From Oscillospiraceae bacterium (GTDB lineage Bacteria; Bacillota; Clostridia; Oscillospirales; Oscillospiraceae): DNA of 42,130 nucleotides. Positions 7,666 through 37,398 of this stretch are shown piece by piece. The position numbers and the translations under genes are program-made. The notes beneath the pieces are model-generated. The model ran no database searches. It was given only the letters and a program-made list of their open reading frames with translations, and was not told where the DNA came from. How positions within the stretch are numbered: position 1 is the first letter of the stretch; every line of letters begins with the position of its first letter. The stretch covers positions 1 through 42,130 of the forward strand of contig JAFYHU010000082.1 of NCBI GenBank assembly GCA_017538965.1, written 5' to 3'.

Positions 7666-8715
7666 TTAGTTTGCACGTTGCTTGTGGAGAAGACTCTCCC
7701 AGATGTAGTCGTCGAGACCCTTGTAGCGCGGGTCCCAGAGATAGGTGCTGTATGTGAGATCCAGCTTATCCAGCAGAGCGTACAGTGCCGCGTACCCGGT
7801 CTGCACATGATAGTTCGATGTGTAGTCCATATCGAAGGCGGTCTTGATGCCCTCCAGACCGTGATTACGCTGCAAATCCAAAAGCGCCTCCGAGAGCTGG
7901 CTGAGCCCGTTCACGCCGGGGACAGCCAGCACAGATAGCCCGGTGAGCGCATGAATCACGTCGGCCTTCATGGGGCCTTCCGTGAGGATCAGCGTTTCTG
8001 TGGCAGGCCCGGCCAGATGCGTCCAGCATTCTGCACCGCAGCCGTCCTTCTCTCCCATGCTGGAAACCCAGCGGAACTTACGTTTCACGGAGTTGTCCTT
8101 TCTGAGCTGGAGACCCTGGATCTGCCCGCAGACGTTGCGCACGGGGATCAGGATCCCGCGGGGGAGACCCGTAAGAGCCCAATTCCCGTCTGCCGTGCGA
8201 AAGAAGCCCGGGACCCCGGCCAGGTAGCAGCCCTGATCCAGGAGCTGTTTGGCGATCGCCGTATGCCCCATGACAGGCGTTGTCCTGTACCGAAGCCGCG
8301 TAATCTCTTCCTCGGACAGACCGCGGGACAAGAGATTCTCTTTATGATCCTGTGAGAGCGTCAGAAGATTCAACAGAGCGGAGTAAGTCGTGTGCCGTGT
8401 TGCCACATCGGTGAGGGGACAGTCCTCCGGCTCCGGCAGAACATAGCTGCTGTGAAAGCCAGCACCGAGCTTTTCGACGAGTGCGGCCTTGACCTGCGCT
8501 CTGGGCGTACCGGTATAGAGCGAATACAGATCGAAGATGCCGCCGGCTTCTCCGCAGCGCGGGCAGCGGAACACGTCCTTCTGCAGGTTGATGTTCATGT
8601 GCCGATCCCTGCCGCTGTCACAGCATGGGCAGGGGATATAGTAGGACAGACGCCCGGCCGGCGCCGGAGGCAAGCCAAGCAGACGGATCACGTCCGAAAT
8701 CGAATAGCTTTCCAT
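7666..8715 (-). CDS. Zinc-finger/Toprim primase-like protein
   Basis: The 349 aa protein has an N-terminal zinc finger of the CHC2 type (CPCC near 29-32 and CPRC near 51-54) of the kind that begins DnaG-type primases. A Toprim-like region follows: LILTEGPMKADVIHAL gives the catalytic Glu, and AFDMDYTSN gives an acidic DxD pair. The central segment has GILIPVRNVCGQIQGLQLR, typical of mobile-element primases with DUF3854-type Toprim folds. It is the last gene of the leftward operon with a RecD-like helicase and a YqaJ nuclease. It probably primes replication of an element or supports recombination-dependent replication. It is shorter than chromosomal DnaG and lacks the helicase-binding C-terminus. 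Confidence 0.8.
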   Translation of the reverse strand: MESYSISDVIRLLGLPPAPAGRLSYYIPCPCCDSGRDRHMNINLQKDVFRCPRCGEAGGIFDLYSLYTGTPRAQVKAALVEKLGAGFHSSYVLPEPEDCPLTDVATRHTTYSALLNLLTLSQDHKENLLSRGLSEEEITRLRYRTTPVMGHTAIAKQLLDQGCYLAGVPGFFRTADGNWALTGLPRGILIPVRNVCGQIQGLQLRKDNSVKRKFRWVSSMGEKDGCGAECWTHLAGPATETLILTEGPMKADVIHALTGLSVLAVPGVNGLSQLSEALLDLQRNHGLEGIKTAFDMDYTSNYHVQTGYAALYALLDKLDLTYSTYLWDPRYKGLDDYIWESLLHKQRAN

Positions 8716-8759: not shown

Positions 8760-9485
8760 TTATGCGCATTCGTTCAGGGCGCTTTCACAGATGAGCTTCG
8801 CCGCCGCGGAGATCTCCTCGGAGTGCGTATACTTGTTGGCAAGCCAGACAAGAGACTTCGGATCGAGGGACACCAGATCGCCCAGCGTCTTGCCGCTGAA
8901 CTTCTTAATGGGGCAGGGCAGACGCATGGCGGCTTCCAGCTTTTCCTCCGGCGTCAGCTCGCGGGGAGCGGGAGGGGGAGGTGGTACGACAGGAGCGGCA
9001 GGTCTTGTATGAGCAGATTCCTCAGGCACGGGATCAGTCACCAGATCCATCGTGAACTCGTCCGGGGCGGTGCTGCTGAAGTCCTCACCCGCGGCGGAGA
9101 ACTGGAGGCCGAAGCCCGCGTTGCGCAGCGCAATGCCGACAGCTGCCGTCTGCGCCCACTCACGCGGGGAGACAGAGGGCTTGTCCTGGCAGCGCCCGCG
9201 GGAAGCGGTCGCCTCGGCAAGATAGCACTCCACGGGATCCCTGTAGTTCGGGTACACGCGGGCTTTTGCCACAAAGCAGTCATGGCCTTGCGTCACCTCA
9301 ACGGAGATCTTTCCTTCGGGATAGCGGAGACGAAACCACGCCATCTGGATCATCACGGGCAGCCGCTTGCGGGTCTGGCCGGTGCCGAGATCGGTATAGT
9401 CCACCGCAAAGGGCCTCGGATCGAAGCCCTCGACGGCGTTGATCTGCTCAAGGACGGATGTATCGACAGTCTGATCCTGATTCAT
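8760..9485 (-). CDS. Putative ssDNA-annealing/recombination protein (241 aa)
   Basis: The protein is unrecognised by name. The core AWFRLRYPEGKISVEV, then ARVYPN, then SPREWAQTAAVGIALRNAGFG (about 45-130) resembles the beta-strand plus ETxAxGRALxxxGF pattern of Rad52/DdrA-like annealing proteins. The second half is a Pro-rich linker (APVVPPPPPAP) and a C-terminal region (about 195-241) with KKFSGKTLGDL and VWLANKYTHSEE. The start overlaps the previous stop as ATGA. Operon neighbours are a YqaJ exonuclease and a RecD-like helicase, and exonuclease plus annealase is a common phage pairing. The assignment rests on pattern and context only. Confidence 0.55.
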   Translation of the reverse strand: MNQDQTVDTSVLEQINAVEGFDPRPFAVDYTDLGTGQTRKRLPVMIQMAWFRLRYPEGKISVEVTQGHDCFVAKARVYPNYRDPVECYLAEATASRGRCQDKPSVSPREWAQTAAVGIALRNAGFGLQFSAAGEDFSSTAPDEFTMDLVTDPVPEESAHTRPAAPVVPPPPPAPRELTPEEKLEAAMRLPCPIKKFSGKTLGDLVSLDPKSLVWLANKYTHSEEISAAAKLICESALNECA

Positions 9486-9940
9486 GACAGAACCTCCTCA
9501 ATATTGATGTAGCTTGTACGGTAGCTGACCCAGACAGGGAGCACCGTGTTGATCATTTCCTGGACGGATTTCCGGTAAAGCTCCGGCGTCCCGGCGTTGA
9601 AGCTCTGAAAACGGCGGCACTGATCGTTGAAAACCGCCTCCAGAGATTTGAGCGCAGTCGCGCGCTGCTGCACCTTCTGTTCGTCACCCTTCGGGCCGAA
9701 GCGCCGTTCGACGAGAAGCGCGCGGAAGCTCGCGATGACCAGCTGGTAGTGGTAACCGATGGCGCCGAGCTCCGTGGTGACCGGCGCCGTGCGGCAATAG
9801 GCCTGCATCAGCTCCAGCGTGGCGATGCGGTAGTTGAGCTCCTGAAAGGCCAGAAGCTCCTGCTGCTTCAGTGAGCCGTCGCTGATCTTTTTGAGCAGTC
9901 CTTCCTGATACTGCTTATACTGACCGAGTACAGTTGCCAT
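9482..9940 (-). CDS. Helical protein of the recombination operon (152 aa)
   Basis: The start is the ATG at 9940 (MATVLGQYKQYQEG), preceded by AAGGGAG at proper spacing; an ATG at 9958 overlaps the helicase gene and is less likely. The sequence is mostly amphipathic helix with heptad-like spacing (for example ELLAFQELNYRIATLELMQAY) and no enzymatic motif. Its stop overlaps the next start (ATGA). No family was recognised. It may be a structural or accessory subunit of the recombination genes around it. Confidence 0.7.
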   Translation of the reverse strand: MATVLGQYKQYQEGLLKKISDGSLKQQELLAFQELNYRIATLELMQAYCRTAPVTTELGAIGYHYQLVIASFRALLVERRFGPKGDEQKVQQRATALKSLEAVFNDQCRRFQSFNAGTPELYRKSVQEMINTVLPVWVSYRTSYINIEEVLS

Positions 9941-9954
9941 ATTGGGTACTCCCT

Positions 9955-12132
9955 TCATTCTTTACTGAGGGCCTGCAGCCGGTGGGCAAGGCAGGTGCCT
10001 CGTTTTTCTGTGTCTGTTTTCTTGATCGCAATGCAGAGAGCCTTTCGCTCGCCGACGAGTATGACCCGGTCCTTGCCGCGCGTGATGGCGGTATAGACGA
10101 GCGGCCTTGTCAGCATGAGCGAGTGCGCGCACTGCAGATTGATGATGACAGAGCGGTATTCACTGCCCTGAGATTTGTGTATCGTCGTCGCGTAGCCCAG
10201 ATCCAGCATTTCAAGGTCGGTCGAGTCGTATTCCTTGACCCGCCCGTCCCCAAAGTCCACATGGACGCAGACGTCGTTTGCGGTTTTGGTAATACCGGTA
10301 ATGGTGCCGATATCTCCGTTGCTCACATCGTCGTGGTTTCGGGTCTGCATGACCTTGTCACCCTGGCGGAAGAGCTTCTTGCCGCAAACTGCCTCTACCT
10401 TATAAGAAGCCTTCGGATTCACGGAATCTCGCAAAACTTCGTTTAAGGCATTGACGCCGGTCTCTGTTTTCTGCCGGAAAGGGGAGAGCAGCGCGACGTT
10501 ATCCACGCCGTAACGCTGTACCTCCTGCAGATAGAGCTCCTTGATCCGTTCGGCAGACTCGGTCAGACTTGCTGACTGGTGAAACTGAAAGTCCGGGCCG
10601 TACTCCAGACTGAGTGTGCCGTGGCGGATGAGCTTGGCATTGACGGCGATCCGGCTGCCCGCGTTCTGTCGGAAGACCCGGTCGAGCCGCACAACGGGGA
10701 TGAGGCCGCTTGCCAGCAGTTCGCTCAGTACAGCGCCGGGGCCGACCGAGGGGAGCTGGTCTGCGTCACCGATCAGGATGAGCTGGCTGCTGCCCGGCAC
10801 CGCCTTGAAAAGGTGCAGGGCGAGATGGTTATCCAGCATGGACACCTCGTCGGCAAGGATCAGGTCTGCCTCCAACGCTTCCACACCGCCGAAGTATCCG
10901 CCGTCAAAGGCGAGTAACCCCAATGCCTTGTGGACAGTGGAGGAAGGCTCGCCGGTGGATTGCTCCATGCGCCGGGCGGCGCGTCCGGTGGGGGCGCAGC
11001 AGATAATGTTGTTTCTCGGATGCTTCCGCTTGTAGATGTCGAGTATGGCCCGCTGGATCATGGTTTTGCCGGTACCGGGGCCGCCGGTGATAATGCTGAG
11101 CGTGTGAGTGAGCGCCATCTTGACTGCTTCCCGCTGCTCAGGCGCAAAGCGCACGCGCAGCGCGCGCTCCTCGGCGTCGATCTCCTGATCCAGATCCTCA
11201 TACTCATATTGGCATGCAGACTGGAGCAGGCGATGAATATGAGTTGCGAGAGATGCTTCACTCTGGGCGTTGGACACCCGGTAGACCATCCCCAGGTAGG
11301 AGACAAGATCGCCCTCGGATACAAGACGCGCGGCGCGGTTTGCGAGCATTTCTTCGGTGAGCTCCGGCGTCTCCAGGAGTTTTGAACAGCTCTTGATGAA
11401 GGCGTGCTTTTCCATACAGAGGTGACCGCGGCTTTCGGCTTCGGTCAGGGCATACAGGAGGGCAGCGTCCACCCGTTCCGTGGAGAGAGGTGTGAAGCCG
11501 ACGCTCGATGCGATCCTGTCCGCCGTCTTGAAGCCGATCCCCGCCAGCTCACAGAGCTGGTACGGATGCTCCTTGACGATAGACATGGCCTCCTTGCCGT
11601 ACTCCTTGTAGAGCTTCACAGCGCGGTTTGCTGTGATCCCGTAGGGCGTGAGAAAGGCGACGACATCGCGTGCCGCCCGGTTGGCAAGATACGAGTCACA
11701 GATCTTCGTGAGGCGGGTCTGGCTGATACCCGGGATCCCGAGAAGCTTGTCCGGCTCCTTGTCCAGAACCTCCAGCGCCAGGTTTCCGTAGGCGTCATAG
11801 ATCTTCTCCGCGATCCTTGGGCCGATCCCCTTGATCTGACCGGAGCTGAGGTACCCGATAATGCCTTCCCGGCTGGGGATGATGACCTCGTCATAGCTGT
11901 CCACCTCAAACTGGGTGCCGTGTTTGGTATTGCGGGACCAGTGGCCCTTCATGTTATAGCGCAGGTGATTGGAGACGGGCAGAAAGTAGCCGACGGCCTT
12001 GAACTGGGGGAGGATGCTGCCGCTGCTGTCCCGGACGATCTCACAGGGACGGTAGACCGCCACCATGTAGCTGCCGGCACTGGCGGCGTGAGCATCTTTG
12101 GGATAGAGGAGCTTTTCAAACTGGCAGAGCAT
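9955..12132 (-). CDS. RecD2-like DNA helicase
   Basis: This is a superfamily 1B 5'-3' helicase of the RecD2 type. The start is the ATG at 12132 after AAGGAGG, giving 725 aa; a longer open frame upstream runs through the preceding gene. Helix-hairpin-helix repeats lie at about 100-140 (GQIKGIGPRIAEKI, LLGIPGISQTRL) and again at GIGFKTADRIASS. Walker A is GGPGTGKT (350-357), motif II is ADEVSML, motif III is IGDADQLPSVGPG, and the C-terminal motif is GYATTIHKSQGSEY. The N-terminal 90 residues diverge from standard RecD2. It sits between a zinc-ribbon gene and two unrecognised genes. It probably unwinds DNA for the nuclease and primase partners. A second RecD2 is at 38040. Confidence 0.9.
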   Translation of the reverse strand: MLCQFEKLLYPKDAHAASAGSYMVAVYRPCEIVRDSSGSILPQFKAVGYFLPVSNHLRYNMKGHWSRNTKHGTQFEVDSYDEVIIPSREGIIGYLSSGQIKGIGPRIAEKIYDAYGNLALEVLDKEPDKLLGIPGISQTRLTKICDSYLANRAARDVVAFLTPYGITANRAVKLYKEYGKEAMSIVKEHPYQLCELAGIGFKTADRIASSVGFTPLSTERVDAALLYALTEAESRGHLCMEKHAFIKSCSKLLETPELTEEMLANRAARLVSEGDLVSYLGMVYRVSNAQSEASLATHIHRLLQSACQYEYEDLDQEIDAEERALRVRFAPEQREAVKMALTHTLSIITGGPGTGKTMIQRAILDIYKRKHPRNNIICCAPTGRAARRMEQSTGEPSSTVHKALGLLAFDGGYFGGVEALEADLILADEVSMLDNHLALHLFKAVPGSSQLILIGDADQLPSVGPGAVLSELLASGLIPVVRLDRVFRQNAGSRIAVNAKLIRHGTLSLEYGPDFQFHQSASLTESAERIKELYLQEVQRYGVDNVALLSPFRQKTETGVNALNEVLRDSVNPKASYKVEAVCGKKLFRQGDKVMQTRNHDDVSNGDIGTITGITKTANDVCVHVDFGDGRVKEYDSTDLEMLDLGYATTIHKSQGSEYRSVIINLQCAHSLMLTRPLVYTAITRGKDRVILVGERKALCIAIKKTDTEKRGTCLAHRLQALSKE

Positions 12133-12142
12133 AGGCGCCTCC

Positions 12143-12802
12143 TTATGCGGACGGAACGAGCACCTTGCGCGTCTTCGGCACAAAATACTCTTCGGTTTCC
12201 ACCGTGCAGGTGCGGGCAAGCTCCAGAGCCTCCGCCACCATGGCGTCGGCGAGCTGATCCAGCTCCTGAACCAGTTTGACGCGCTCCCGAAGCTGAACAA
12301 GGCTCCAGTCCTCAAAGTCTTCGCCGTCGTCTGTACCGCGGCCGGGATAAATGCTGATCTCCATGGGCGGTGTGGTGTAATCCACCCGGCTGTGACTGCC
12401 GCAGCGGCCGCACACATCCCCGGATTCGGAGATACTCTTGTAGTTTCGCTGGCCGCATTCCCGGCAGTAGGACTTGTAGCCGGACGGCTTTTGACAGCCC
12501 TGGTATAAGACCAGATATCCGCCGCTGCGTCCGTTCATGCCCACCTGCCAGAGATAGTCATGCTCCATACCGAAACGGGTACGCAGATCCTGCATGGCCT
12601 CCTGAAACTCGAATGTGTCCAGCATATCCAGAAGCTTCTCCACAATCCCGGCGCTCAGACCGAGTCTGTCTACCTTGAGATTGCAGGCATAGCTCGTGGC
12701 CTGGTTCCAGGAATTCATCGTGGGATAGCGGAAATGATTCTCCAGATAGGCGGTCATATCTGCCCGGGAGCGCAGATCCACGGGTGTGTAAAATTTCTTC
12801 AT
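12143..12802 (-). CDS. Zinc-ribbon protein (219 aa)
   Basis: A four-cysteine zinc ribbon (CREC near 114-117 and CGRC near 131-134) sits in the middle of an otherwise unrecognised protein. The N-terminal 100 residues are helical and include MKKFYTPVDLRSRADMTAYLENHF; the C-terminal 50 are helical and acidic. AGAAGGGAATCAGAC precedes the ATG. It lies between the YqaJ nuclease (15-base gap) and the RecD-like helicase (10-base gap). A nucleic-acid-binding adaptor is plausible but not shown. Confidence 0.7.
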   Translation of the reverse strand: MKKFYTPVDLRSRADMTAYLENHFRYPTMNSWNQATSYACNLKVDRLGLSAGIVEKLLDMLDTFEFQEAMQDLRTRFGMEHDYLWQVGMNGRSGGYLVLYQGCQKPSGYKSYCRECGQRNYKSISESGDVCGRCGSHSRVDYTTPPMEISIYPGRGTDDGEDFEDWSLVQLRERVKLVQELDQLADAMVAEALELARTCTVETEEYFVPKTRKVLVPSA

Positions 12803-12817: not shown

Positions 12818-13855
12818 TTATTTCGCCTCCGCTGATACACGCAGCTTGCGGCTGTTGGAGGTCGAAACGACCTCGTCATAGATAAGCGGGTACTTTTTCT
12901 TCAGCTCCGTGCTGCTGACCCGCCTGGAGGATTTCGTCACAAAGTCTATGAGGAGCTTGTCTGTTGTGGTCTCAAGGACCCCATGCTCATGCTCCTTCAT
13001 AAGCTCCGCAATGCGTACCGTGTGCGCCTTCATCTGCTCCTCGTAGCGCTTGATCTCCGCCTGACAGGCGTCGATATCCTTCTGCAGGGACAGAATCTTG
13101 CGCAGGGAGGGCTCGCATTTCTTCGGCAGCTCCACCGTCGGCAGCGTCGGATCGCTCGCCTGATAGATCCGGGCGAGGGATTCGAGCGCCAGCTTCGAGG
13201 GGATGCCGGACATGGTGGGCGGCTTGTCATGCTTGAGGCTCCAGATCCACTGATCCAGCTTCTCGAAGATCATGTCCTCCTTTGCCATATCCCGCGTGAT
13301 CTCGGGCGTGGCGATATCGTTGTCGGGGTTGTTGCCCCAGACCGCCGAAAACGCCCCGATATTCACATCGGCAACGGAGAGATAAAAGCGAAGCTGCATC
13401 TCGTAGTAAAGGGGGAAGCCGCCGTCGTCCCAGTCTGAGGCATGGCGGTAGGTGGTGCTTTTGCATTCCAGGATGCCGGGCTCACCGTCGGAGGCACGCT
13501 CGAAGCGCCGGTCGAAGTCTGCCAGTGCGTAGGGGTGATCCGAGTGCTGATACATGTAGGTGTCGTCATAGACACGGTTGCCGGATTTCACCTCATAGAA
13601 GTGAGCGGCGATAGGCTCCAGAAGATGACCCATCTCCAGCTGCAGGGCGTTTGCCTTGACGGCGGGCTTCATACGGCCTTTTTTGATCATCCAGAGCTCC
13701 AGCGGCGTTGTCCAGGGCGAGATACCGAAGATCGTGGCGACATCGCTGCCGCCGACGGTGTACTCGATGTCTCCCTTGGGGCCGTGGGCGCGGCATTCAA
13801 GCCAGCGATCGTTGCTCATGCCCGCGGTATCGCAGAGAATGATAGGGGAGGCCAT
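12818..13855 (-). CDS. YqaJ/lambda-exonuclease-type recombinase nuclease
   Basis: This is a 345 aa PD-(D/E)XK exonuclease of the YqaJ family, which resects dsDNA ends for single-strand annealing. Signatures are GGSDVATIFGISPW (about 36-48), GHLLEP with E80, LADFDRRF with D113, the catalytic ILECKSTT (E130, K132) and EMQLRFYL with Q154. The C-terminal 130 residues form a helical, coiled-coil-like region (LQKDIDACQAEIKRYEEQMK). The start overlaps the upstream gene's stop (TGATGG). The annealing partner may be the 241 aa protein in the same operon. Confidence 0.88.
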   Translation of the reverse strand: MASPIILCDTAGMSNDRWLECRAHGPKGDIEYTVGGSDVATIFGISPWTTPLELWMIKKGRMKPAVKANALQLEMGHLLEPIAAHFYEVKSGNRVYDDTYMYQHSDHPYALADFDRRFERASDGEPGILECKSTTYRHASDWDDGGFPLYYEMQLRFYLSVADVNIGAFSAVWGNNPDNDIATPEITRDMAKEDMIFEKLDQWIWSLKHDKPPTMSGIPSKLALESLARIYQASDPTLPTVELPKKCEPSLRKILSLQKDIDACQAEIKRYEEQMKAHTVRIAELMKEHEHGVLETTTDKLLIDFVTKSSRRVSSTELKKKYPLIYDEVVSTSNSRKLRVSAEAK

Positions 13856-14994
13856 CAGTATTCCACCGCCTTTGCCAGATCGTATTCATTCCAGTTGAGC
13901 GTCAAGGCTCTGGCCATGTTTTCCTCAAGGGCGAGGAGCTTGCTCTCGGGGGCGCCGGAGGTCTTCATGATGAAGGGGATCTCCTGCATGGCGAGAAACA
14001 CATCATGGGCCGTGGCAGCACCGCCGCCGTAGGTCATCTCATACATGGCGATGGCCTCAACAGCAGCCTTCTTCGGCATACTGAGCTTTTTGCAGACGCG
14101 GGTCATGGCGTTGACGGGGTAATCCAGCTCTACCTCCAGCAGGTGCTGGAGTCTGGACATGGACTCCCCAAACTGGGCGAAGAGCTGATCCAGCGCTGCG
14201 TCGAAATCTGCGATGCTGGACTTATGCCGGTGATCCACCGCGACGCAGCTCCCAATATGGATCGGATGCTGACTGCCGATGAGCAGGGCCGAGACCTTGG
14301 CGGACGCGATGCCGGTATCCGAGGTGAGAAACCGGATGCCGGGCGTCAGACGTGAGGCCATGGCGCTTTTGCCCTTGGCGTCCAGGAGCTTCGTATAGGT
14401 GCCGATAAGATCGTCCTTCTGATCCGGCAGCTCCCAGGAGGCGCTTGTGATGGCATGATCGCTGTATCCGGCGTCAAAGACATTGCCGGGAAAGCGTTCA
14501 TCCAGCTTGGCCTGGAGGGTACCGAGAAGCAGGTCGATGGGGAGAATGGCGTAATCTGATTCGTCGCCGGAATGGACTGCGGAGATCTTTTCGTCCCGAA
14601 CCAGGACAAGGGCTTCGGAGCGAAAATGGCTGAGGAAGGTGTTGAGGACCTGGGCAAGCTCGGTTTTTGTGAGCTTGTTGAGACCCGAGCCGCTGACCTT
14701 CGCGCGGTCGAGAAGGCTCTTGTATGCGGTTTCACGTACGGGGTAGAGCTTCTGGTCAAAGCGGATGGCGAGACCGAGATTGTTGAAGCTGTCCTCCACG
14801 GCCTCCGAGCTGACGCCGGGGGCGAACTCCTTGAGCGCGGGGTAGCAGGAGGAATTGTGATTCAGCGGCTCCACATGGAGCTGATTGACTGCGCAATGGC
14901 TCCACTGGCTGCGGGAACTGACCTGCTGCTGATAACCGAAGAGCTCGTTGTAACTGGTGAAGGTGGCGGAGAAGGTGTCCTGACAATTCTGCAT
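13855..14994 (-). CDS. Unrecognised phage/plasmid-type protein, first gene of operon (379 aa)
   Basis: This is the first gene after the attenuator leader, with GAAAGGAGCATTCATC before the ATG. The 379 aa product has alternating beta and helical segments such as EALVLVRDEKISAVHSGD and the acidic ESDYAILPI, a domain with SALLIGSQHPIHIGSCVAVDH, and a helical C-terminus. The layout is reminiscent of DUF932-type phage/plasmid proteins, but I cannot confirm that. No catalytic motif stands out. It is translationally coupled to the YqaJ nuclease, which suggests a role in element replication or recombination. Confidence 0.65.
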   Translation of the reverse strand: MQNCQDTFSATFTSYNELFGYQQQVSSRSQWSHCAVNQLHVEPLNHNSSCYPALKEFAPGVSSEAVEDSFNNLGLAIRFDQKLYPVRETAYKSLLDRAKVSGSGLNKLTKTELAQVLNTFLSHFRSEALVLVRDEKISAVHSGDESDYAILPIDLLLGTLQAKLDERFPGNVFDAGYSDHAITSASWELPDQKDDLIGTYTKLLDAKGKSAMASRLTPGIRFLTSDTGIASAKVSALLIGSQHPIHIGSCVAVDHRHKSSIADFDAALDQLFAQFGESMSRLQHLLEVELDYPVNAMTRVCKKLSMPKKAAVEAIAMYEMTYGGGAATAHDVFLAMQEIPFIMKTSGAPESKLLALEENMARALTLNWNEYDLAKAVEY

Positions 14995-15043
14995 GATGAA
15001 TGCTCCTTTCTGAATTCCGGCGGCTCAGCCGTCTGAGTGTGAA

Positions 15044-15078
15044 TAACAAAAGCCGGCAATCTGAGAGACTGTCGGCTT
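15044..15078 (-). terminator. Second hairpin in the operon 1 leader
   Basis: AAGCCGACA (15078-15070) pairs with TGCCGGCTT (15058-15050) on the minus strand, followed by TTGTTATT. The loop contains CAGTCTCTC again, the core of the conserved leader element upstream. It may be a second attenuator or a binding hairpin for the same regulator. Confidence 0.5.
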
Positions 15079-15100
15079 CATGTCCGGTATGACGGGAAAC

Positions 15101-15137
15101 AAAAAAGTGCCATTTACCCATAAAGGCAAATGACACT
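15101..15137 (-). terminator. Leader attenuator of operon 1
   Basis: On the minus strand AGTGTCATTT (15137-15128) pairs with AAATGGCACT (15115-15106), followed directly by six T. It lies between the promoter at 15219-15191 and the first gene at 14994, so full transcription needs read-through or antitermination. An almost identical hairpin with the same flanking motif precedes the SSB operon at 26711-26748. Confidence 0.75.
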
Positions 15138-15138
15138 A

Positions 15139-15154
15139 TGAGACGAGAGACTGA
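15139..15154 (-). promoter_or_regulatory. Conserved leader element, copy 1
   Basis: TCAGTCTCTCGTCTCA on the minus strand contains a direct repeat of GTCTC with a seven-base period. The same 16 bases occur at 26750-26765, in both cases one base before the attenuator stem. It is a candidate RNA or DNA target for a shared regulator. Confidence 0.6.
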
Positions 15155-15190
15155 TGTTTGCTCACGGCAAACCGGAAACTGTACAGCTTG

Positions 15191-15219
15191 AGTTTACCAG
15201 AAAGGGGCAGGAGAGTCAA
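15191..15219 (-). promoter_or_regulatory. Promoter of operon 1
   Basis: TTGACT (15219-15214), a 17-bp spacer and TAAACT (15196-15191) on the minus strand. The -35 is preceded by TGAAAT, as in the SSB-operon promoter. ACAGTTTCC lies just downstream in both. Confidence 0.75.
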
Positions 15220-15249
15220 ATTTCAGGGGGTTTACCGAAGCAGTAACGC

Positions 15250-15804: not shown

Positions 15805-15840
15805 GGTGGTCATCCTCTCAAATGAAACAGAATCTGCAGC

Positions 15841-15935: not shown

Positions 15936-15943
15936 ACGCGGAC

Positions 15944-15973
15944 ATTATACCGGAGAACAGACAGACCTGTCAA
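15944..15973 (-). promoter_or_regulatory. Promoter of the hydrolase gene
   Basis: TTGACA (15973-15968), an 18-bp spacer and TATAAT (15949-15944) on the minus strand match both consensus boxes perfectly. Confidence 0.8.
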
Positions 15974-16021
15974 TATAAAATGACTTGCCGCTTGTGCTAT
16001 ACGGATGAATACGGGGATACA

Positions 16022-20740: not shown

Positions 20741-23098
20741 TTATACCCGTATATGCCGCTTGACCAGGGTGGTCAGCTTGACGGGCAGCTGATTCAGATC
20801 GGTGATATCCAGAAAGGAATCACCGTATATGCGTTCGATGCTGGGCTTGTCGTCGCCGATGGCGGCGGCTGCGAAGAGAATCTTTTTACGGGTGTATTCC
20901 TGCTTGATGCCGCGAAGGTCTTCCTCAGCTGCGGTTCCGTAGTACCCGGTGTCCGCGGGTTGGCCGTCGGACACCAGGATCAGGAGCTTTACCGTTTCAG
21001 GACGCCGCGAAAGCTGCTCCGCAACATAACGCAGAGCGGCGCCATCACGGTTGCTGTCGCGGGCGGTGATGTCCATGAGCCGGTATTTATCATCCCGGTC
21101 GATGCTGTCAAATTCAGCATAGGAGTAGAGCTCAACCGTGTTGTCTCCATCCTTGTATCCCGTGGAATGGCCGTAGACCATCACCGGGATGTCCAGACTC
21201 TGACAGAAATCATAGAGGATGATCGCCGCGGCTCTGGCGTAGGTGCAGCGGTCGCGGGACCACATGGAGCCGGATTCATCCAGCAGCAGGCCCACCGCAA
21301 GCTCAGGGATCTCGTTGGGGAGATTGTTCTTGCAGAAGACCTTGCCGTCGGTACGGTGCAGCGCATGGGAATCAAGCCGACGGCCCATAAGCAGGCCAGT
21401 CTGTTTTCCGCCGCGCCGGCTGTCCTTGAGCTGTCGGACAATGCTCTTCTGAAGCTGCCGGGAGATTGCCAGCAGGGGAGCGGAGATCTCATTGTACTGC
21501 TCAACCAGCGTTTCATCCACGCTCGCAATACGATTGACCCGGATCTGAACCCCGCTGTGGATATCCCCATAGGAGATGCTCTGTGCAGCTTCGTTGAGTT
21601 CGGTCAGACGCTCGTTCTCCAGCTCCGCACAGGCCGCACGTTCGGCCATCTTGTCCAGGATACGTTCAATATCACTGGCTGCCTTCTCGTTTTTGAGATG
21701 CTCATAGTCCTCATTGTGCTCTAAAGAGCCGTCGAGCGGGTTGGAGCAGCGATCAGTCTGTTCGAGCGGGATACGCCCGCTTTCCTCCTCACTGGCACCC
21801 TGGCTGGAATCATTGCCGGAAGCACCGCCTCCAGCATAGTTCCCGAAGGGCGACTGTACTGATGCACCGTCCCCGTCGGATTCTCCAGACTGGGATTCGT
21901 CCTCAGACTCAGATTCATCGGAAGTGCATTCACTCTCAGACTCACTTTCTGCAGGGGGCTGGGGAGTCTCATCCTCATCTCCGACCTTCTTTACGCCAGA
22001 CCCGGAATCTTCTTCAGATCCGGGGCTCTCTTCGGCTTCTTGCCTGGTCCTGGCGCGGGAAGCGGAGGTTGCGCTTGCTTCCTCTGCTTCACCTGCTTCT
22101 GGAACCGGGGAGGAGTCGCCGCTTGCAAGGCCGGAGGAACCGGCAATCGCCCCCAGGACCTTGGAGATCATCTCGGGGGCAGAGGCGGAACCGCCGGATG
22201 CGGCGCTGTCCTCCTGCCGCTGCTTGCAGATTTCAAGGAAGTCCTTGATGGTATCCCAGCAGCGGATCAGAATCAGGCTCACGACCTGGCAGCGTTCCTT
22301 CGCGGAGTGTGTGATCAGGGCGTGGTCGATCTGATCCATCAGACCGAAAACAGTCTGCACACGCTCATCGGAAAGAGGCTCATCGCCGTACTTGATTACG
22401 CCAAATTTGGCATAGGAGAGGATGAGCTGCAGGATGCTCTCAAACTTATGGCAGCTCCCGGATTCCTCATACTCGATGAGCTGGGTCACGGAAGCCATAT
22501 CCTTCTGCTGGAGGCTCCGAAGCTCCTCAAGCCCATAGCCCAGTGTACCGGGAAAGGCATTGAGCATACGGTTTTCAATATACCCGTCCTCCAGTACATT
22601 GGAGATATGATGGGCGGCTGTCTGTACCATGTCCAGATTTTTCGGAACAGCCTTGACATAGGCCCAAAAATCTGTCTCCCGGCGCAGATCTGCGGAATTG
22701 AGCGTGGGTCGCACCGGATACCAGCGACCGGCTGCAAGGTTATTGTGGTAGGTCTGGAAAGTGAGGAAATCCGTGAAGAGCACATGACCCAGTTCATGGG
22801 CGAACATCCCGGTCACGATCTGATAGCGGTTTTCGCGCCCGCGCACCTTCGTCACAGTGGGATGCCCGGCGTTTATGAGAATACTGTTGTTGTCCGTACA
22901 GGCAGCGGAGGGATTCTTCGCGTTCCAGAACAGATTGACCCGGATGCGCCTGTTGTAGTGATAGCGTCTTGTCTGCGCCGCGGCAAGATCCTCGTAGTGA
23001 CCGGCGAGGATACGGGAAGTGAAAAACTGCCGGTCGGTGATCTTGCTGCGTTTCTCGTTGAGAAGCTGCTTTACGCGCTTATGATTTACCCTGCTCAA
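20741..23098 (-). CDS. HExxH plus VWA-domain protein, MoxR partner (785 aa)
   Basis: The N-terminal domain carries a zincin-like motif FAHELGHVLF (HELGH at 101-105) with a possible third ligand in NVLEDGYIENR (E170 or E175), as in CobT/NorD-like and DUF2201-like proteins. Residues 293-445 are a low-complexity Ser/Glu/Asp-rich linker. The C-terminal VWA domain (about 598-785) has a complete MIDAS: DESGS (607-611), the loop Asp685 in NRDGAAL and Asp711 in VSDGQP. Such proteins work with a MoxR-type AAA+ ATPase, here encoded 23 bases upstream, in metal insertion or remodelling of a client complex. The client is unknown. The presence in an SSB-led operon is unusual. No signal peptide. Confidence 0.85.
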   Translation of the reverse strand: MSRVNHKRVKQLLNEKRSKITDRQFFTSRILAGHYEDLAAAQTRRYHYNRRIRVNLFWNAKNPSAACTDNNSILINAGHPTVTKVRGRENRYQIVTGMFAHELGHVLFTDFLTFQTYHNNLAAGRWYPVRPTLNSADLRRETDFWAYVKAVPKNLDMVQTAAHHISNVLEDGYIENRMLNAFPGTLGYGLEELRSLQQKDMASVTQLIEYEESGSCHKFESILQLILSYAKFGVIKYGDEPLSDERVQTVFGLMDQIDHALITHSAKERCQVVSLILIRCWDTIKDFLEICKQRQEDSAASGGSASAPEMISKVLGAIAGSSGLASGDSSPVPEAGEAEEASATSASRARTRQEAEESPGSEEDSGSGVKKVGDEDETPQPPAESESESECTSDESESEDESQSGESDGDGASVQSPFGNYAGGGASGNDSSQGASEEESGRIPLEQTDRCSNPLDGSLEHNEDYEHLKNEKAASDIERILDKMAERAACAELENERLTELNEAAQSISYGDIHSGVQIRVNRIASVDETLVEQYNEISAPLLAISRQLQKSIVRQLKDSRRGGKQTGLLMGRRLDSHALHRTDGKVFCKNNLPNEIPELAVGLLLDESGSMWSRDRCTYARAAAIILYDFCQSLDIPVMVYGHSTGYKDGDNTVELYSYAEFDSIDRDDKYRLMDITARDSNRDGAALRYVAEQLSRRPETVKLLILVSDGQPADTGYYGTAAEEDLRGIKQEYTRKKILFAAAAIGDDKPSIERIYGDSFLDITDLNQLPVKLTTLVKRHIRV

Positions 23099-23121: not shown

Positions 23122-24996
23122 TTATGTGGTGGCACGACGGACCTTGGGAGCGAAGATCGGCTCGAGAATACTGCTGATCAGAGCCTCGCGGTCGGCCTCA
23201 TCGGCGGTGGCTTTGCTGATGACGGTGTACAGGGCAGACTGATACGGATCACCCGTGATCTGTGTGCTCACGATCCAATCCAGCAGACTGCGCATGCCGA
23301 CAGCGCCGTCCGTGATGCTGTTCTTGCGGCAGTAGTCGGACATGTCGTTGACGACCTGCACCATCTGAGAGACCTGATATTCGTCGGTAGCGCCGGTGAC
23401 GCTCATTGCGCGCTGCACCATGACCTCGGGTGCGGGTAGCTCAATGTCCTGCACAAGACTCATTCTGTCGATGATCGACTGGTTGAGCCCACGGCAGCCC
23501 TCATAGGAGATGTTCGTCGTGACGATCACCACCGCGTCGGGATGCCGCTCGATGATCTCGCCGGTGGGCAGTGTGATGGAGCCGCCCTGCTCGAGAAGTG
23601 AGTTGAGACCGACCATGACACCGGGCTGGGCAATCGTCGTTGGCTCCTGGAGCTCAATGACATAGCCCTTCTTCAGCGCCTCCAGAAAGTCCGTCTGGGT
23701 ATAGGTGAAGGTCTGACCGCCGGTGACGCGGCTGCTCTCCTCGCGCTTGCTGAGTGCCTGAACCTTTTCGGTCACGCGCTCCAGAATGAGTGCCATGCAG
23801 TCCTGCGCACTGGCGTCTTCCTTTTCCACACCGGTAAGCGCATAGTAAACACCTGCGGGATCGTAGTCCATGTCGTCGAGATCGGGCAGCTTCATGAGCT
23901 TTGCAACATTGGTGTAGTTGATCCCGCCCATGGCCTTGAGCTCCTCGCGCTCCTGATCCAGCTGCTTGTCCCCGGTAGAGGATGCGGCGGAGTCAGGGAA
24001 GAGCTGGCCGATCAGGTCATAGATCTCCGTGTTGGCGTTGCAGGTGTATTTCTTATACGGCAGACCGAGTCCGGCCGCAACCGCCTTGGCGCCCATGGTC
24101 TTGCCAGTACCGGCTGGGCCGCGCAGGAGAAAGTTTCGCATCTGCGTGGGCTGGCCGGTGGTATCTTTGGCGTGGCGGCAGATCTGCACGATCTCCTCCG
24201 GAATGATGTACCAGGAGGGGAGTACCGGTACCTGCATCTGCTCCAAGGGAGTGAGTGTTCTCGGATGCAGCTGATACTTTCCCACAAAGTCTCCGGGATC
24301 GACAAGGGCAGCAGCCTTCTTGTACGTCACGGAACCTGTCTTGGCGAAGATGGTGAACTCACCTGCCACAACACGATTCGGCGTCAGAGCGCCCGAGTCA
24401 AGCTGGGCCTGGCCGACGCGCATGATGTTCCCCGAACGATCGAGCGTTACCTTGATGTGTGCCGGGCAGGCGTCATCCTTGATGCGGCGGTAAGCGTTGT
24501 CGCAAAGAATGGCCATGTACTGGGCGGCAAGATTCACATCCGGGAACCCGGCGATATACTGATCGTGATATTTGCTGCAGGTATCCGAGAACTCTTCATC
24601 CATTGTGAGAACAGGGAAGAGGGCCATCATGATCGCGGCGCCGTCGCGTGCGGTCTTGTGAACCGTATAGGTCTCCAGAACCTCGGTGGCCTTGTCATAG
24701 ACGCTGGCCATCAGGGACCCGGAGTTGCTGTCGTAGACAACCAGGTGATAGGCGTCGGGACCCACGGAGGACTTGTACTCGGCGACCGTGCGGTGGTCGA
24801 TCACGCCGACAGCGCCTTCACCGCCGTCCATGCAGCGGAACACCGCATGGATGCCTTTGATTACCGAGGCACAGAGCGTGGAGGCGGTACCGTCGCCATA
24901 CTTGGAGGAGACGGAGAGCCGTTTGCTCTTCAGTGTGTCAAACGGGGCGGGGAGTGCGCGGTCAAACGCGAAGAGATTGGAGGCATTGGTGCTCAT
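23122..24996 (-). CDS. MoxR-like AAA+ ATPase (624 aa)
   Basis: The N-terminal 250 residues are unrecognised and look like a separate domain. The AAA+ core starts near 285: Walker A LLRGPAGTGKTMGAKA (293-300), followed by CNANTEIYDLIGQLFPD. An insertion of about 100 residues (335-440) precedes a Walker B-like strand that reads GYVIELQEPTTI, with Gln where most members have Asp. Sensor 1 is VIVTTNISYEG (490-500), and NQSIIDR carries a likely arginine finger. It is 23 bases upstream of the VWA partner. The pair should form a MoxR/VWA chaperone module. The client may be one of the DNA-processing proteins of the co-regulated operons. Confidence 0.87.
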   Translation of the reverse strand: MSTNASNLFAFDRALPAPFDTLKSKRLSVSSKYGDGTASTLCASVIKGIHAVFRCMDGGEGAVGVIDHRTVAEYKSSVGPDAYHLVVYDSNSGSLMASVYDKATEVLETYTVHKTARDGAAIMMALFPVLTMDEEFSDTCSKYHDQYIAGFPDVNLAAQYMAILCDNAYRRIKDDACPAHIKVTLDRSGNIMRVGQAQLDSGALTPNRVVAGEFTIFAKTGSVTYKKAAALVDPGDFVGKYQLHPRTLTPLEQMQVPVLPSWYIIPEEIVQICRHAKDTTGQPTQMRNFLLRGPAGTGKTMGAKAVAAGLGLPYKKYTCNANTEIYDLIGQLFPDSAASSTGDKQLDQEREELKAMGGINYTNVAKLMKLPDLDDMDYDPAGVYYALTGVEKEDASAQDCMALILERVTEKVQALSKREESSRVTGGQTFTYTQTDFLEALKKGYVIELQEPTTIAQPGVMVGLNSLLEQGGSITLPTGEIIERHPDAVVIVTTNISYEGCRGLNQSIIDRMSLVQDIELPAPEVMVQRAMSVTGATDEYQVSQMVQVVNDMSDYCRKNSITDGAVGMRSLLDWIVSTQITGDPYQSALYTVISKATADEADREALISSILEPIFAPKVRRATT

Positions 24997-25026: not shown

Positions 25027-25749
25027 TTAAAAAAGTACTTTGATGCCGTCGGCATCGATCTTTACATTCTGTAAGCCGTTTCGCTGAAGCTCCTTGCAGA
25101 CGCAGCTCCAGCTTTCCGGTTTGGGGAGGTCGTTGCGGTCAATGTGTAGCCCGGTCTCGCCGGAGCCTATGGAGTCGTTGATCCGCTGATTGAGGGAAAC
25201 CATGTTGGCTTCCACCCACTCAAAGGCCACCAACTCGTAATTCTCCGGCAATGGCTCGGAGGCTGAGGACTGAGAATCTGCATGGGTATCCGAAGACTTG
25301 GGCGGAGATACAGGCGCAGAGAGATAGACGAGGGATTTAAGCCTGCCATGCTCTGCCCGAAGCTCTGCGCGGCGATAACCGCCGGCACGGTTGAGCAGGA
25401 TGATGGCGGGCTTCCCGGCTTCAAGATCCCGGAGAGCTCCGGGACTTTCCCAGATCCAACGGGCGTCCGGATAGGACTGAAAGATGCCGGCGTTGATGTC
25501 CTCAATAAGTGCACAATACGCTGTCTGCGCCTTGATGTCGGTTTTACGCGGCGGCAGCAGCACAGGCGGCTGCGTCGGCGGAACATTCCGGGACGACAGA
25601 AACAGCAGCCGAAGTGTTGCTATAAAGATGCCGAGGATAACCAGCAGAAGGATGGGCCACAGCCTTGTGATAAACAGGAGCAGTGCGAGAAGCAGGAGAA
25701 GAATCAGGGCTTCATACGCCATACGCCGCTGGTATTCTTTTTGATTCAT
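25027..25749 (-). CDS. Membrane-anchored protein of the SSB operon (240 aa)
   Basis: The start is the ATG at 25749 (MNQKEYQRRMAYEALI). Two hydrophobic helices fill about residues 12-50 (ILLLLLALLLFITRLWPILL), followed by a proline-rich stretch and a soluble domain of about 170 residues. That domain has IEDINAGIFQSYPDARWIWE, AIILLNRAGGYRRAEL and a C-terminal YELVAFEWVEANMVSLNQRI. The family was not recognised. It lies between a small helical protein and the AAA+ ATPase and overlaps the former by 38 bases. It may link the AAA+/VWA machine to the membrane. Confidence 0.7.
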   Translation of the reverse strand: MNQKEYQRRMAYEALILLLLLALLLFITRLWPILLLVILGIFIATLRLLFLSSRNVPPTQPPVLLPPRKTDIKAQTAYCALIEDINAGIFQSYPDARWIWESPGALRDLEAGKPAIILLNRAGGYRRAELRAEHGRLKSLVYLSAPVSPPKSSDTHADSQSSASEPLPENYELVAFEWVEANMVSLNQRINDSIGSGETGLHIDRNDLPKPESWSCVCKELQRNGLQNVKIDADGIKVLF

Positions 25750-26095
25750 AGCCTGTATGTCCTTTCTGTGTCCGCGCAGGCGGCACAAAGATATGGAGCT
25801 GACGCGATCCCTTGGGGTCGGCCTTGCTTCGGGTGATGACCGCGGCGGCATCCAGCGGATGTTCCGGGATCAGAACCGGGGTGATGCGGATGGCCCGGTC
25901 CAGGGACAGCACACGCCAGTATTCCGTGTTGCTCTGATAGAGACGGATGGTATACTGCTGCTTTCGGGGAACGGCCTTTGCAATGGTAAGCAGCTCCTTC
26001 GGGAGCAGGAGCCCTTCGGTCTTGCGGTCAAGAGCGCCGAGGATCTTTGTCTCCTTTTCTTCAGCGGAGAGCTTGGAGAATGCTTTGTTCTTCAT
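25712..26095 (-). CDS. Unrecognised protein of the SSB operon (127 aa)
   Basis: The start is the ATG at 26095 (MKNKAFSKLSAEEKETKIL), with AAAGGAGG just upstream; a longer open frame upstream is out of phase with SSB and not real. The product has a helical N-terminus and a beta-rich centre (YTIRLYQSNTEYWRVLSL, RAIRITPVLIPEH), basic overall. No family recognised. Its last 38 bases overlap the start of the membrane protein gene. It follows a hairpin that may lower its expression relative to SSB. Confidence 0.7.
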   Translation of the reverse strand: MKNKAFSKLSAEEKETKILGALDRKTEGLLLPKELLTIAKAVPRKQQYTIRLYQSNTEYWRVLSLDRAIRITPVLIPEHPLDAAAVITRSKADPKGSRQLHIFVPPARTQKGHTGYESKRIPAAYGV

Positions 26096-26177: not shown

Positions 26178-26639
26178 TCAGCCCTCGTCGAAGAAGGAGC
26201 CGCCGCCGAAGGATTCATATCCGGCGAAGTTCTTCCCGGCAGGGGGCGCGTCACGGCCTGCGGGTGCGGCACTGCCCGGTTCATCGGATTTCTTCTCGGT
26301 CTTGGGCCTGGAGCCGGCAAACTCGATATCGTCAAGGATGATGACCGGCTGGCTTCTCGGCTCGCCGGTACTCTGATCGGTCCAGGTATCCTCGTCATAG
26401 CGGCCGGTGATGTTGATGGCGGAGCCTTCCTTGAGCTGCATCTTCTTAATGCGCTCACAGAGGTTGCCGAAGGCCTTGACGTTGATGTTGACCCAGCGGG
26501 TATTGTTCTCGGCGTTCTTGTCGTAGACGCGTTCGCCGATGCGGAAGCGGACAACATTGCCGTCCTCGGAATACTTGAGGGCTGCGCGGTTGTCGAAGCC
26601 TCGGGAGATCACGGCATTGGTTGCGGTAAAACGTAACAT
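26178..26639 (-). CDS. ssb: Single-stranded DNA-binding protein
   Basis: The 153 aa protein has an OB-fold of about 110 residues: RFTATNAVISRGFDNRA at the start, VVRFRIGERVYD, TRWVNINVKAFGNLCERI, and EGSAINITGRYDEDTW, then PVIILDDIEFAG. The Gly/Pro/Ala-rich tail ends GGSFFDEG. This is acidic but lacks the usual DDDIPF tip that recruits partner proteins, so it may have different partners. It is the first gene of the operon under the attenuated leader. It is probably an element-type SSB beside the chromosomal one. Confidence 0.88.
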   Translation of the reverse strand: MLRFTATNAVISRGFDNRAALKYSEDGNVVRFRIGERVYDKNAENNTRWVNINVKAFGNLCERIKKMQLKEGSAINITGRYDEDTWTDQSTGEPRSQPVIILDDIEFAGSRPKTEKKSDEPGSAAPAGRDAPPAGKNFAGYESFGGGSFFDEG

Positions 26640-26710
26640 GAGAGTACCCCTTTCTGCAGGTTTTTCCTGCTTTGACTATTATATTTCAACCCGTTTGTCG
26701 GGAGAAATCG

Positions 26711-26748
26711 AAAAAAAGAGTGCCATTCGGAAAAATCCAAATGACACT
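26711..26748 (-). terminator. Leader attenuator of the SSB operon
   Basis: On the minus strand AGTGTCATTTGG (26748-26737) pairs with CCGAATGGCACT (26730-26719), followed by C and seven T. It lies between the promoter and ssb and is nearly the same as the attenuator of operon 1 at 15101-15137. Confidence 0.75.
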
Positions 26749-26749
26749 G

Positions 26750-26765
26750 TGAGACGAGAGACTGA
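26750..26765 (-). promoter_or_regulatory. Conserved leader element, copy 2
   Basis: TCAGTCTCTCGTCTCA, identical to the element at 15139-15154, one base before the attenuator stem. GAGAGAC near the expected 5' end of this transcript could pair with GTCTCTC in the element. Confidence 0.6.
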
Positions 26766-26800
26766 GAATCCTGAGCGGATACTGGAAACTGTTGTCTCTC

Positions 26801-36293: not shown

Positions 36294-36782
36294 TTACTTG
36301 CTCAAAATGCCGAGCTTACCATTCAAACATTGCATTACACTGATTGCATAGTATCTCGGAATCACTTGTACCCCATCACGCTCATAAACGGGAAAATGCC
36401 GGGAGAGGTAGATTGCAACAGTATCACCGACCTGAACTGAGGGGACGGGAAATGACGGACGAAGCATTATGATCCGGTTCTCGAGCGAGACATATATGGC
36501 TGCCATGCGTCTGCGAAACAGCGTCTTCTCTATCGCAGAGCAGGTTCCCCGCAAACAGATGCAGTTGCCGCTTGCCCAATCGGAAAAAAGAACGCTCCCG
36601 GCAAAGAGACTATATACCATGCTTATAAGAGGTGGGATCGCAAGCCGAATACCGGTAGAAATAATCATACAGACAATAAACAATATCGCGTTGATAAGCG
36701 CGGCAAGCAGCCGAAAGACCAGCACACGCCTAAGAGGCTCTGGCAGAGAGAAAAACTGCTCTCGAAGCGATGAAAGCTTCAT
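36294..36782 (-). CDS. Membrane protein with C-terminal beta domain (162 aa)
   Basis: Two hydrophobic helices lie at about residues 20-42 and 46-66, followed by a soluble region that looks like an all-beta domain (AAIYVSLENRIIMLRPSF, then VQVGDTVAIYLS). The start overlaps the upstream stop (ATGA). No family recognised. The gene sits in a leftward operon headed by a tail-anchored zinc-ribbon protein; both have membrane segments, so they may act together. Confidence 0.7.
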   Translation of the reverse strand: MKLSSLREQFFSLPEPLRRVLVFRLLAALINAILFIVCMIISTGIRLAIPPLISMVYSLFAGSVLFSDWASGNCICLRGTCSAIEKTLFRRRMAAIYVSLENRIIMLRPSFPVPSVQVGDTVAIYLSRHFPVYERDGVQVIPRYYAISVMQCLNGKLGILSK

Positions 36783-37330
36783 ATCAGGACGAGCCTCTTG
36801 CAGCGGAGAAGGTACAGCAACATATTTACCACATGATCCCGGTAAGCTGCGCTCTCCATTTGCTGCTCCAGAAGATTATCCTGGATGCTGTTCGTCATGT
36901 AGATCAGGCTCACAAGCTTATGCCTGTTTTCCACACCCAGCAGGCTTTTTGCCGGAGCGATCCGGTGTTCTGCCAGATAGACCAGCTCAGCGACCGACAG
37001 TCGCAGCCCGGCCTTTTCAAGCCAGGTCAGGGTCGCGGATGCCTGCCAGCGCAGCGGGATGCGGGTGTAGCTCTCCACAGGGCAGCAGATACAGCGGGTG
37101 AATACACGGTAGCGAGAGAGGGGGCAATCATCTTCCTCTGTTTCAATCAAGCCCATTCGACGGAGATGTTCTACCTCACGGGAGTACGGTGTCATAGAAA
37201 AGTCTCTGGAGCCGTCGAGCCAGATGGCAGCCTCCAGTTCGGTCAGGGTAAAAACTCTTCCACAGTGATTGATCAACAGCAATTGTTCCGTGGAGTTCGG
37301 AAGAACAGTACCTTTTGAAATATACAGCAT
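36779..37330 (-). CDS. Winged-helix-like protein (183 aa)
   Basis: The start is the ATG at 37330 (MLYISKGTVLPNS), nine bases after GAGGTG; a GTG three codons upstream is too close. Residues about 28-65 (FTLTELEAAIWLDGSR to HLRRMGLIETEEDD) have the pattern of a winged helix-turn-helix. A pair CICC near residue 80 could bind metal. The rest is helical, with VNMLLYLLRCKRLVLI at the end. It could be a DNA-binding regulator of its own operon. No established family recognised. Confidence 0.65.
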   Translation of the reverse strand: MLYISKGTVLPNSTEQLLLINHCGRVFTLTELEAAIWLDGSRDFSMTPYSREVEHLRRMGLIETEEDDCPLSRYRVFTRCICCPVESYTRIPLRWQASATLTWLEKAGLRLSVAELVYLAEHRIAPAKSLLGVENRHKLVSLIYMTNSIQDNLLEQQMESAAYRDHVVNMLLYLLRCKRLVLI

Positions 37331-37398
37331 TACATTCACCTCATAAAATGATTTTTCACCTCCATTACACGGTCGAAATTTGAAAAGTGCAACATCGC

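Follow-up and report, generated by a model that had tools for sequence, protein, structure and literature searches.

RNA-based antitermination in mobile elements is already known. In the Gram-positive integrative conjugative element Tn916, the antitermination RNA canT enables RNA polymerase to pass terminators and serves a long transfer operon; the same source lists ConAn1/conAn2, put and EAR together with canT and summarizes HK022 put RNA and EAR as antiterminating without a dedicated protein (PMC11658703). The conAn system of pLS20, composed of the ConAn1 protein and the conAn2 RNA, is one system heading a conjugation operon of >30 kb (PMC8955417). In Bacillus velezensis, the LoaP-controlled dfn and mln leaders carry a promoter, a small RNA hairpin and an intrinsic terminator in the 5′ leader, and more than one long operon per cell is subject to conditional read-through (PMC12691694).

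Here, we describe leaders with the same order of promoter, small RNA hairpin and intrinsic terminator in a 42,130-nucleotide stretch of DNA from an Oscillospiraceae bacterium (contig JAFYHU010000082.1; hereafter the window) and in other genomes. Unlike the single conAn system, they occur in many copies and, unlike canT, each of several copies heads one operon. With moderate confidence, we read them as one putative family of conditional attenuators that would form a regulon in large conjugative elements and be read through by a shared factor.

Architecture of the leader family

Both window leaders lie on the minus strand. Leader A (15097..15181; 67.2 bits with covariance model R2) follows a promoter at 15219-15191 (TTGACT, 17 bp, TAAACT; 9 of 12 consensus matches) and consists of an AGTTTC box (15180-15175), hairpin 1 (15172-15156), a linker with a 16-mer (15154-15139) and an intrinsic terminator (15106..15137) that in RNA folding forms 14 pairs followed by T6. 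Leader B (26710..26791; 56.7 bits with R2) has the same parts, i.e., a promoter at 26829-26801 (TTGACG, 17 bp, TATAAT; 11 of 12 matches), an AGTTTC box (26790-26785), hairpin 1 (about 26783-26766, measured on the copy in L056, which has identical letters in that segment), a 16-mer linker (26765-26750) and a terminator (26719..26748) of 13 pairs followed by a T-rich run. Direct reading of the letters bears out the claim of the sequence-only reading that both leaders have this promoter, ACAGTTTCC and then the 16-mer TCAGTCTCTCGTCTCA, and a AGTGTCATTT..AATGGCACT hairpin (stems 15137-15106 in A and 26748-26719 in B) with a T-run. The common layout that it described also holds; the 19-20 bases that it placed between ACAGTTTCC and the 16-mer are 19 in A and 18 in B, and in both leaders these bases can form a hairpin. 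Between the attenuator of leader A and the first gene, direct reading finds a second terminator-like hairpin (15050..15078, minus strand), with counterparts by eye in the operon A leaders of genomes G475, G373, G216 and G294. By eye, operon B leaders have further small inverted repeats after the terminator (window about 26655-26669, and in relatives); among these, GCAGGNNNNNCCTGC lies right before the ribosome site, and its G475 version is changed but still paired.

The 16-mer has two exact matches in the window compared to 0.00 expected from 100 shuffles. These two are the only exact matches in the whole 3.39-Mb genome, where the 16-mer also fits 16 places with 3 mismatches, compared to 23 places for a reversed-pattern control. 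Terminator-like sites in 9000-28500 are no more frequent than by chance (19 observed, 17.8 expected) and, therefore, only the stem length and the repetition of the A and B terminators count; their stems are the longest among the 19 sites.

The 16-base element does not hold up as the signature that the earlier reading had proposed. Its 15-base core, used as a database probe, matched 91 stretches in genome_contigs, of which by eye only two contain a leader, and the rest look like chance. Both are relics in Ruminococcaceae MAGs, which makes Clostridia the probable class: in RUG13571 (L080:3059-3257), the leader remains while the operon is gone, and in RUG10684 (L056:2632-2880), the leader remains and the first 104 codons of SSB are missing. 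Upstream regions in relatives have the same layout with other linker letters, e.g., GTATCAGAGTTACA. What is conserved is the leader as a whole, of which the 16-mer represents just one local spelling.

A first covariance model, R1, with 15 pairs was replaced by R2, which comprises hairpin 1 and the terminator and was built from 16 leaders. From the R1 search of the order, matches above 37.6 bits were taken up together with G581:C74 (34.1 bits); a match of 38.5 bits in G475 (L137:10126) is a true leader, and one of 41.5 bits in G493 is a false positive, a bare stem that has neither box nor linker nor promoter. The R2 list comprises 35 copies at E ≤ 0.01 (46.3-77.9 bits) from 14 of 51 sources searched, two of them the relics; related carriers among these sources do not count as independent. 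In the large genome searches, which used stricter filters that lose weak matches, R2 matched 6 of 391 genomes of the class at E ≤ 1e-4, all six with element genes behind at least one match, and 1 of 398 genomes of a phylum sample, which is the window's own. The search of the class, which was blind to genes, yielded 12 matches beyond the training set, and operon A, B or D (see below) lies behind 10 of these. The leaders found by the models themselves are those of G581, G660, G997, G879 and G977, the extra leaders of G475 (C21, C63), those on C43 and C53 of G373, and the one on C40 of the window's own genome (G000), which is the third copy in that genome (G000:C40:36836-36917).

In these leaders, a near-consensus promoter is followed by AGTWTC near the RNA 5′ end, hairpin 1 and a conserved linker (consensus about CACAGUUWUCnGAGUUUACA), which together take up the first ~50 nt of the RNA, and then by an intrinsic terminator. 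At least 9 of 12 promoter consensus bases are present in 30 of 33 leaders, compared to 3.5% of shuffles, and the spacer is 17 bp in 29 of 33. In 32 of 33, the distance from the end of the −10 box to the leader is 7-9 nt; therefore, the RNA should start at, or 1-2 bases from, the AGTWTC box. Folding of the segment from this box to the next AGT supports hairpin 1: the mean z is −2.75 with 30 of 31 distinct segments negative, compared to +0.28 with 8 of 31 negative for control stretches upstream, and in 28 of 31 the hairpin takes up the whole segment, compared to 25% of shuffles; the segments of L184, L181:12785 and L221 are shortened by an internal AGT, and one of these gives the only positive z. 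An earlier test on a longer stretch gave a mean z of −1.34 with 32 of 32 negative. The stems of hairpin 1 are unrelated in sequence (GTTTG/CAAAC, GGATTTTCC/GGAGAATCC, CATTGC/GCAATG), and we infer that it is kept by shape. In L181:12785, it is about 16 nt longer than usual, and the distance between the boxes changes with it.

Some results of alignment and whole-leader folding count against hairpin 1. RNAalifold on a first alignment found the terminator alone. Of nine whole leaders folded, six have hairpin 1 in their best fold, but other upstream pairings win over it in window leaders A and B and in G294B. In the 16-leader alignment, 79.7% of cells are paired compared to 38-50% in slid versions, and the covariation score is 0.289 compared to at most 0.171; hairpin 1 itself is only 60.7% paired, partly through misregister. 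Two-sided changes affect 8 of the 13 pairs in the terminator and 4 of the 6 in hairpin 1, a count that is weak evidence on its own (12 pairs, compared to up to 11 in slid versions). The terminator stem and T-run are present in 34 of 34 distinct leaders, partly by selection, and the stem sequence is replaced in the leaders of the ligase and PcfK/J operons. By eye, several leaders have more terminator-like hairpins behind the first.

Operons and probable conjugative elements behind the leaders

Three main operon types follow the leader: the YqaJ/RecD2/primase operon (operon A), the SSB/AAA/VWA operon (operon B) and a DNA-ligase operon that is new here (operon D). By downstream genes, the 35 leaders divide into 10 for operon A, 10 plus one relic for operon B, 6 for operon D, 2 for PcfK/PcfJ, 2 for a DNA methylase (in G294 assigned by position only), 3 with unidentified genes and 1 operon-less relic. 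Thus, 31 of the 35 are directly upstream of identified element genes, and only one is known without an operon. Behind the leader on G475:C63, PcfJ matches at E 1.1e-27 and PcfK at 1.6e-5, just under the cut-off; the assignment on G475 C21 is by resemblance. The ligase-family gene of operon D is present in G475, G581, G660 and G997 (Pfam on the G997 member), and operon D in G000 and G373 was recognized by its other genes. Carriers have one to seven copies, on contigs that are often partial, and G475 has five on one contig and two on another. The sequence-only reading had staked its case on conservation of the leaders upstream of orthologous operons in related genomes, and in other genomes they are conserved there.

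All window genes of operons A and B are on the minus strand. Operon A starts with a gene for a 379-aa protein (13855..14994) without a Pfam or NCBIfam family, whose own family is present in 13 of 15 collected carriers; a profile search found no solved structure for it (best E 0.3), and a single-sequence structure model was unusable (pLDDT 38.6). It is followed by a YqaJ/lambda-exonuclease family nuclease (12818..13855; Pfam 4.6e-28, TIGR03033), a 219-aa protein without a Pfam family (12143..12802), a RecD2 helicase (9955..12417 as the ORF is listed; TIGR01448, 700.9 bits) whose alignment with relatives begins at a Met near 12132, a 158-aa protein of element family F9 (9482..9958), a 241-aa protein of element family F4 (8760..9485) and a protein with DUF3854 (7666..8715; Pfam 1.9e-6). 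We take the latter to be primase-like, in part from a zinc-ribbon-like N terminus seen by eye. Operon B consists of SSB (26178..26639; Pfam 4.2e-10), the small gene F37, a 274-aa protein of element family F8 with a membrane-type N terminus by eye (25027..25851), an AAA_5 ATPase (23122..24996; Pfam 4.4e-9; relatives with 67-71% identity) and a CobT-type VWA protein (20741..23098; Pfam 6.5e-11; PHROG 1576).

Three element genes, F18, F22 and F14 (36294..37833, minus strand), are directly upstream of operon B in G475 and in the window are split from it by a defense island. This Mza-type system (window 27376-36042; MzaB, MzaC, MzaD and MzaE by PADLOC, and a C5 cytosine methylase) sits between operon B and the F18/F22/F14 genes and is absent there in RUG10684 (L056). 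Between operons A and B, window 16791-19725 encodes a 325-aa protein without a Pfam family, a GIY-YIG protein and a DDE transposase, perhaps as an insertion. The AAA gene of G216 contains a reverse transcriptase with HNH of the group II intron type (L141:11420-13294). By eye, the window ends (1-7000 and 38000-42130) look chromosomal, with an iron-type ABC transporter and a second RecD2-like ORF of 880 aa.

The genes occur rarely and in scattered genomes. Among 300 genomes of the family, 6 have the 379-aa gene, one of them being the window's own, and it is absent from all five genomes listed for the same genus; the AAA gene is present in 8 of 394 genomes of the order. This scattered occurrence points to mobility. 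Both genes are found together in 10 of the 15 collected carriers, several of these being partial contigs. Operons A and B are close together in G475, G373, G216 and G294, and 50-75 kb apart on the same contig in G039 and G154. Among viral contigs, a search with the AAA gene gave one further relative, L192, and an alignment-based search gave, among the matches listed, the rest of the L192 contig, near-identical G475 copies and one near-identical G210 copy; a single-protein search of these contigs with the 379-aa gene gave no match.

The contig with the third leader of the window's own genome (G000:C40) carries operon D and conjugation genes, among them a VirB4-like conjugation ATPase (L214:12246-14798) that scores over the cut-off with Pfam P-loop_TraG (79.9 bits) and matches VirB4-type NCBIfam models at E 1.6e-88 and 1e-83, under their cut-offs. 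A conjugation ATPase is thereby linked to a leader-bearing operon in G000; its family, F27, is also present in G020, G039, G154 and G475. The two leader contigs of the own-genome assembly, which is 93.9% complete, are not joined; the A/B module may have become detached from the remainder of the element, or there may be a break in the assembly. An actin-like (ALP_N) protein (L217:6377-7294), whose family is present in eight collected carriers, and its small neighbor (L217:5993-6361) are a possible partition pair. The sequence-only reading had proposed that the recombination genes and an AAA+/VWA machine form one system. The shared leader stands; in place of a separate AAA/VWA machine, the leader-bearing genes look like modules for replication and DNA processing that belong to a large conjugative element.

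Leader dialects and mode of action

Linker spelling follows the genome. Between leaders of different operons in one genome, linker identity is 0.784 (43 pairs) compared to 0.680 between genomes (337 pairs), a difference reached in 0 of 5000 permutations; this test used 31 of the 35 leaders, the two relics and those of MT837680 and G977 being left out, and linker strings cut by eye. The difference persists without G475 (0.751 within compared to 0.657 between; 0 of 5000) and without G475, G216 and G294 (0.749 compared to 0.681; 20 of 5000). Shared base composition and recent duplication could contribute to the likeness within genomes. Spellings differ even between elements in hosts of one family (G000 compared to G216/G294). 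In a second lineage (G039, G154 and G210), whose 379-aa homologue has 33% identity, the leader is spelled in another way, with TTATTAGA, a CTCCC/GGGAG-type hairpin, TAAGCAGTNANCC and a terminator. A profile of the three operon A leaders of this lineage also matches in front of the SSB gene, at E 5.4e-11 in G154 and at E 2e-6 in G039, and therefore the second lineage also places one leader on both operons. All 12 SSB genes of the family table, from 11 carriers, are preceded by a promoter-plus-terminator leader: nine of the type described here (four of which, in G660, G997, G977 and the second G475 copy, came to light by way of their leaders), two of the second type and one, in G020, of a third type judged by eye. 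This third kind of leader is at L146:9706-10300, and the 379-aa gene was not found in carrier G020.

A strong promoter followed by a terminator within about 90 nt suggests that control is placed at termination. We judge this a real, conserved leader family with the behavior of a regulon by sequence, and its mechanism is probably antitermination; the common antitermination signal proposed by the sequence-only reading stands as an inference. Control by DNA damage or phage, which that reading had considered, gains no support here. RNA polymerase would start often and normally halt at about +90, giving a short RNA only. Upon activation of the element, a factor would recognize the RNA formed by box, hairpin and linker and allow polymerase to pass the leader terminator and the hairpins behind it, thereby turning the modules on together. 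Because spelling is shared among the leaders within a genome and changes from one genome to another, this factor is probably element-specific, i.e., encoded by the element or matched to it. That the terminator is only a few bases behind the recognition RNA, leaving little time for factor loading, counts against this mechanism.

Known types of factor were searched for in 10 carrier genomes, with the proviso that the elements may extend onto contigs other than those with leaders. NusG (PF02357) is present in nine genomes (seven with one match and two with two) with no match on leader contigs, and its absence in G000 is probably due to incompleteness. One ANTAR gene is over the cut-off in each of nine genomes, and none is on a leader contig. 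CAT_RBD (PF03123) has no match in the 10 genomes, while the control matches in 4 of 14. The small ligase-operon protein F24, with six members, is a guess for the factor.

Alternatively, the leader RNA might act alone in cis, in the manner of HK022 put, EAR and Tn916 canT, with box, hairpin and linker in direct contact with RNA polymerase, which would then ignore the first terminator and later ones; only transcripts from the leader promoter would be protected, and stray transcription would stop. The position of the −10 box, from which the RNA should begin with the leader, the further terminator-like hairpins seen by eye behind the first, and the lack of a dedicated factor in the NusG, ANTAR and CAT_RBD searches all fit this idea, and canT works without other element genes (PMC11658703). 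However, an RNA that is always active in the way of put would make the adjacent terminator pointless, and the change of spelling between G000 and G216/G294 fits a changing partner better than the conserved RNA polymerase. We regard RNA acting alone as rather unlikely, if still a serious contender. It is clearly less plausible that the conserved boxes are DNA operators for an element repressor at the start site, with the hairpin and terminator merely insulating, even though the first box is at about +1 and the start site and the linker both have AGTNNC-like boxes as repeats: the box distance varies with hairpin 1, hairpin 1 is kept by pairing rather than sequence, and an insulating terminator that faces the operon's own promoter makes little sense.

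Strong promoters and strong terminators also predict an abundant short RNA, and a small RNA of about 90 nt acting in trans could itself be the product, with the operon expressed by leaky read-through. We consider this very improbable, as up to five copies per contig point to cis control, the leaders nearly always stand directly before identified element genes, and the terminator stem sequence is free to change. The layout of promoter, leader and terminator is equally that of ordinary self-contained attenuation by a leader peptide, a T-box, a riboswitch or a mutually exclusive antiterminator. In shuffles that kept base content only, cross pairs with the terminator arm averaged 7.1, compared to 4.9 in the leaders, i.e., there is no excess pairing, and a start codon with a Shine-Dalgarno sequence is present in 1 of 34 leaders. 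The lack of competing pairing and of a leader peptide disfavors self-contained and ribosome-mediated attenuation; moreover, no Rfam family matches at gathering score in the window or in L133, L136 and L128, and a ligand pocket is not expected to drift by element. We give this explanation hardly any credence. Altogether, factor-dependent antitermination appears to rank first on our best reading, with RNA acting alone on RNA polymerase as the runner-up.

We tentatively suggest a bolder form of factor-dependent antitermination, which may well be wrong: the cassettes of about 90 nt would mark replication and DNA-processing operons in a new antitermination code, in which dialects co-change per element and are read by an element-encoded RNA-binding antiterminator, and at least two lineages would use different codes on the same operons. 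Provided that read-through is conditional, a single signal would jointly turn on the operons for nuclease, helicase, primase-like protein, SSB, ligase and AAA/VWA. If true, this would tie the 379-aa family, the AAA/VWA pair and the small ligase-operon proteins to one replication program of mobile elements. The dialects offer a direct route to the missing factor, a protein whose variants track leader spelling, and the leader can serve as a tag in searches for operons of such elements that would otherwise go without annotation.

Relation to described antitermination systems

EAR is among the Rfam families. At gathering score, Rfam gave no match in the window or in L133, L136 and L128; the best sub-threshold match of leader A is TD-1 (19.6 bits compared to 64.5), and L192 and L220 gave one weak match (26.1 bits compared to 38) outside the leaders. 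On 47.6 kb of pCF10, which by annotation carries a Tn916-like element that we take to be Tn925, R2 reached at best 20.7 bits, compared to 46.3-77.9 bits for the leaders. On 50 of the 66 kb of pLS20, R2 scored at best 31.7 bits; this match, which precedes ssb, corresponds to the terminator behind rok, has no box and no linker, and was rejected as a leader. The R2 background thus reaches about 32 bits. We presume that canT and conAn2 are within the stretches searched.

The sequence-only reading knew of no described leader of this form. This holds in that neither Rfam nor the literature searched, which included only a minority of subscription papers, contains a description of such a leader, and within that literature we did not find many copies with element-specific spellings described on replication operons; it is too broad in that RNA-based antitermination in Gram-positive conjugative elements is known from conAn and canT. 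Among known leaders, the LoaP-dependent dfn leader is the closest in layout. The dfn hairpin is of the UNCG type and binds a NusG paralogue (PMC12691694). Here, by contrast, loops vary in length and sequence, with no UNCG tetraloop by eye among 31 hairpin 1 segments, and no NusG paralogue, which in LoaP-type systems accompanies its target element, is on the leader contigs of the 10 carrier genomes. Moreover, the dfn leader region spans 417 nt (PMC12691694), whereas the terminator of the leaders described here ends about 90 nt from the start.
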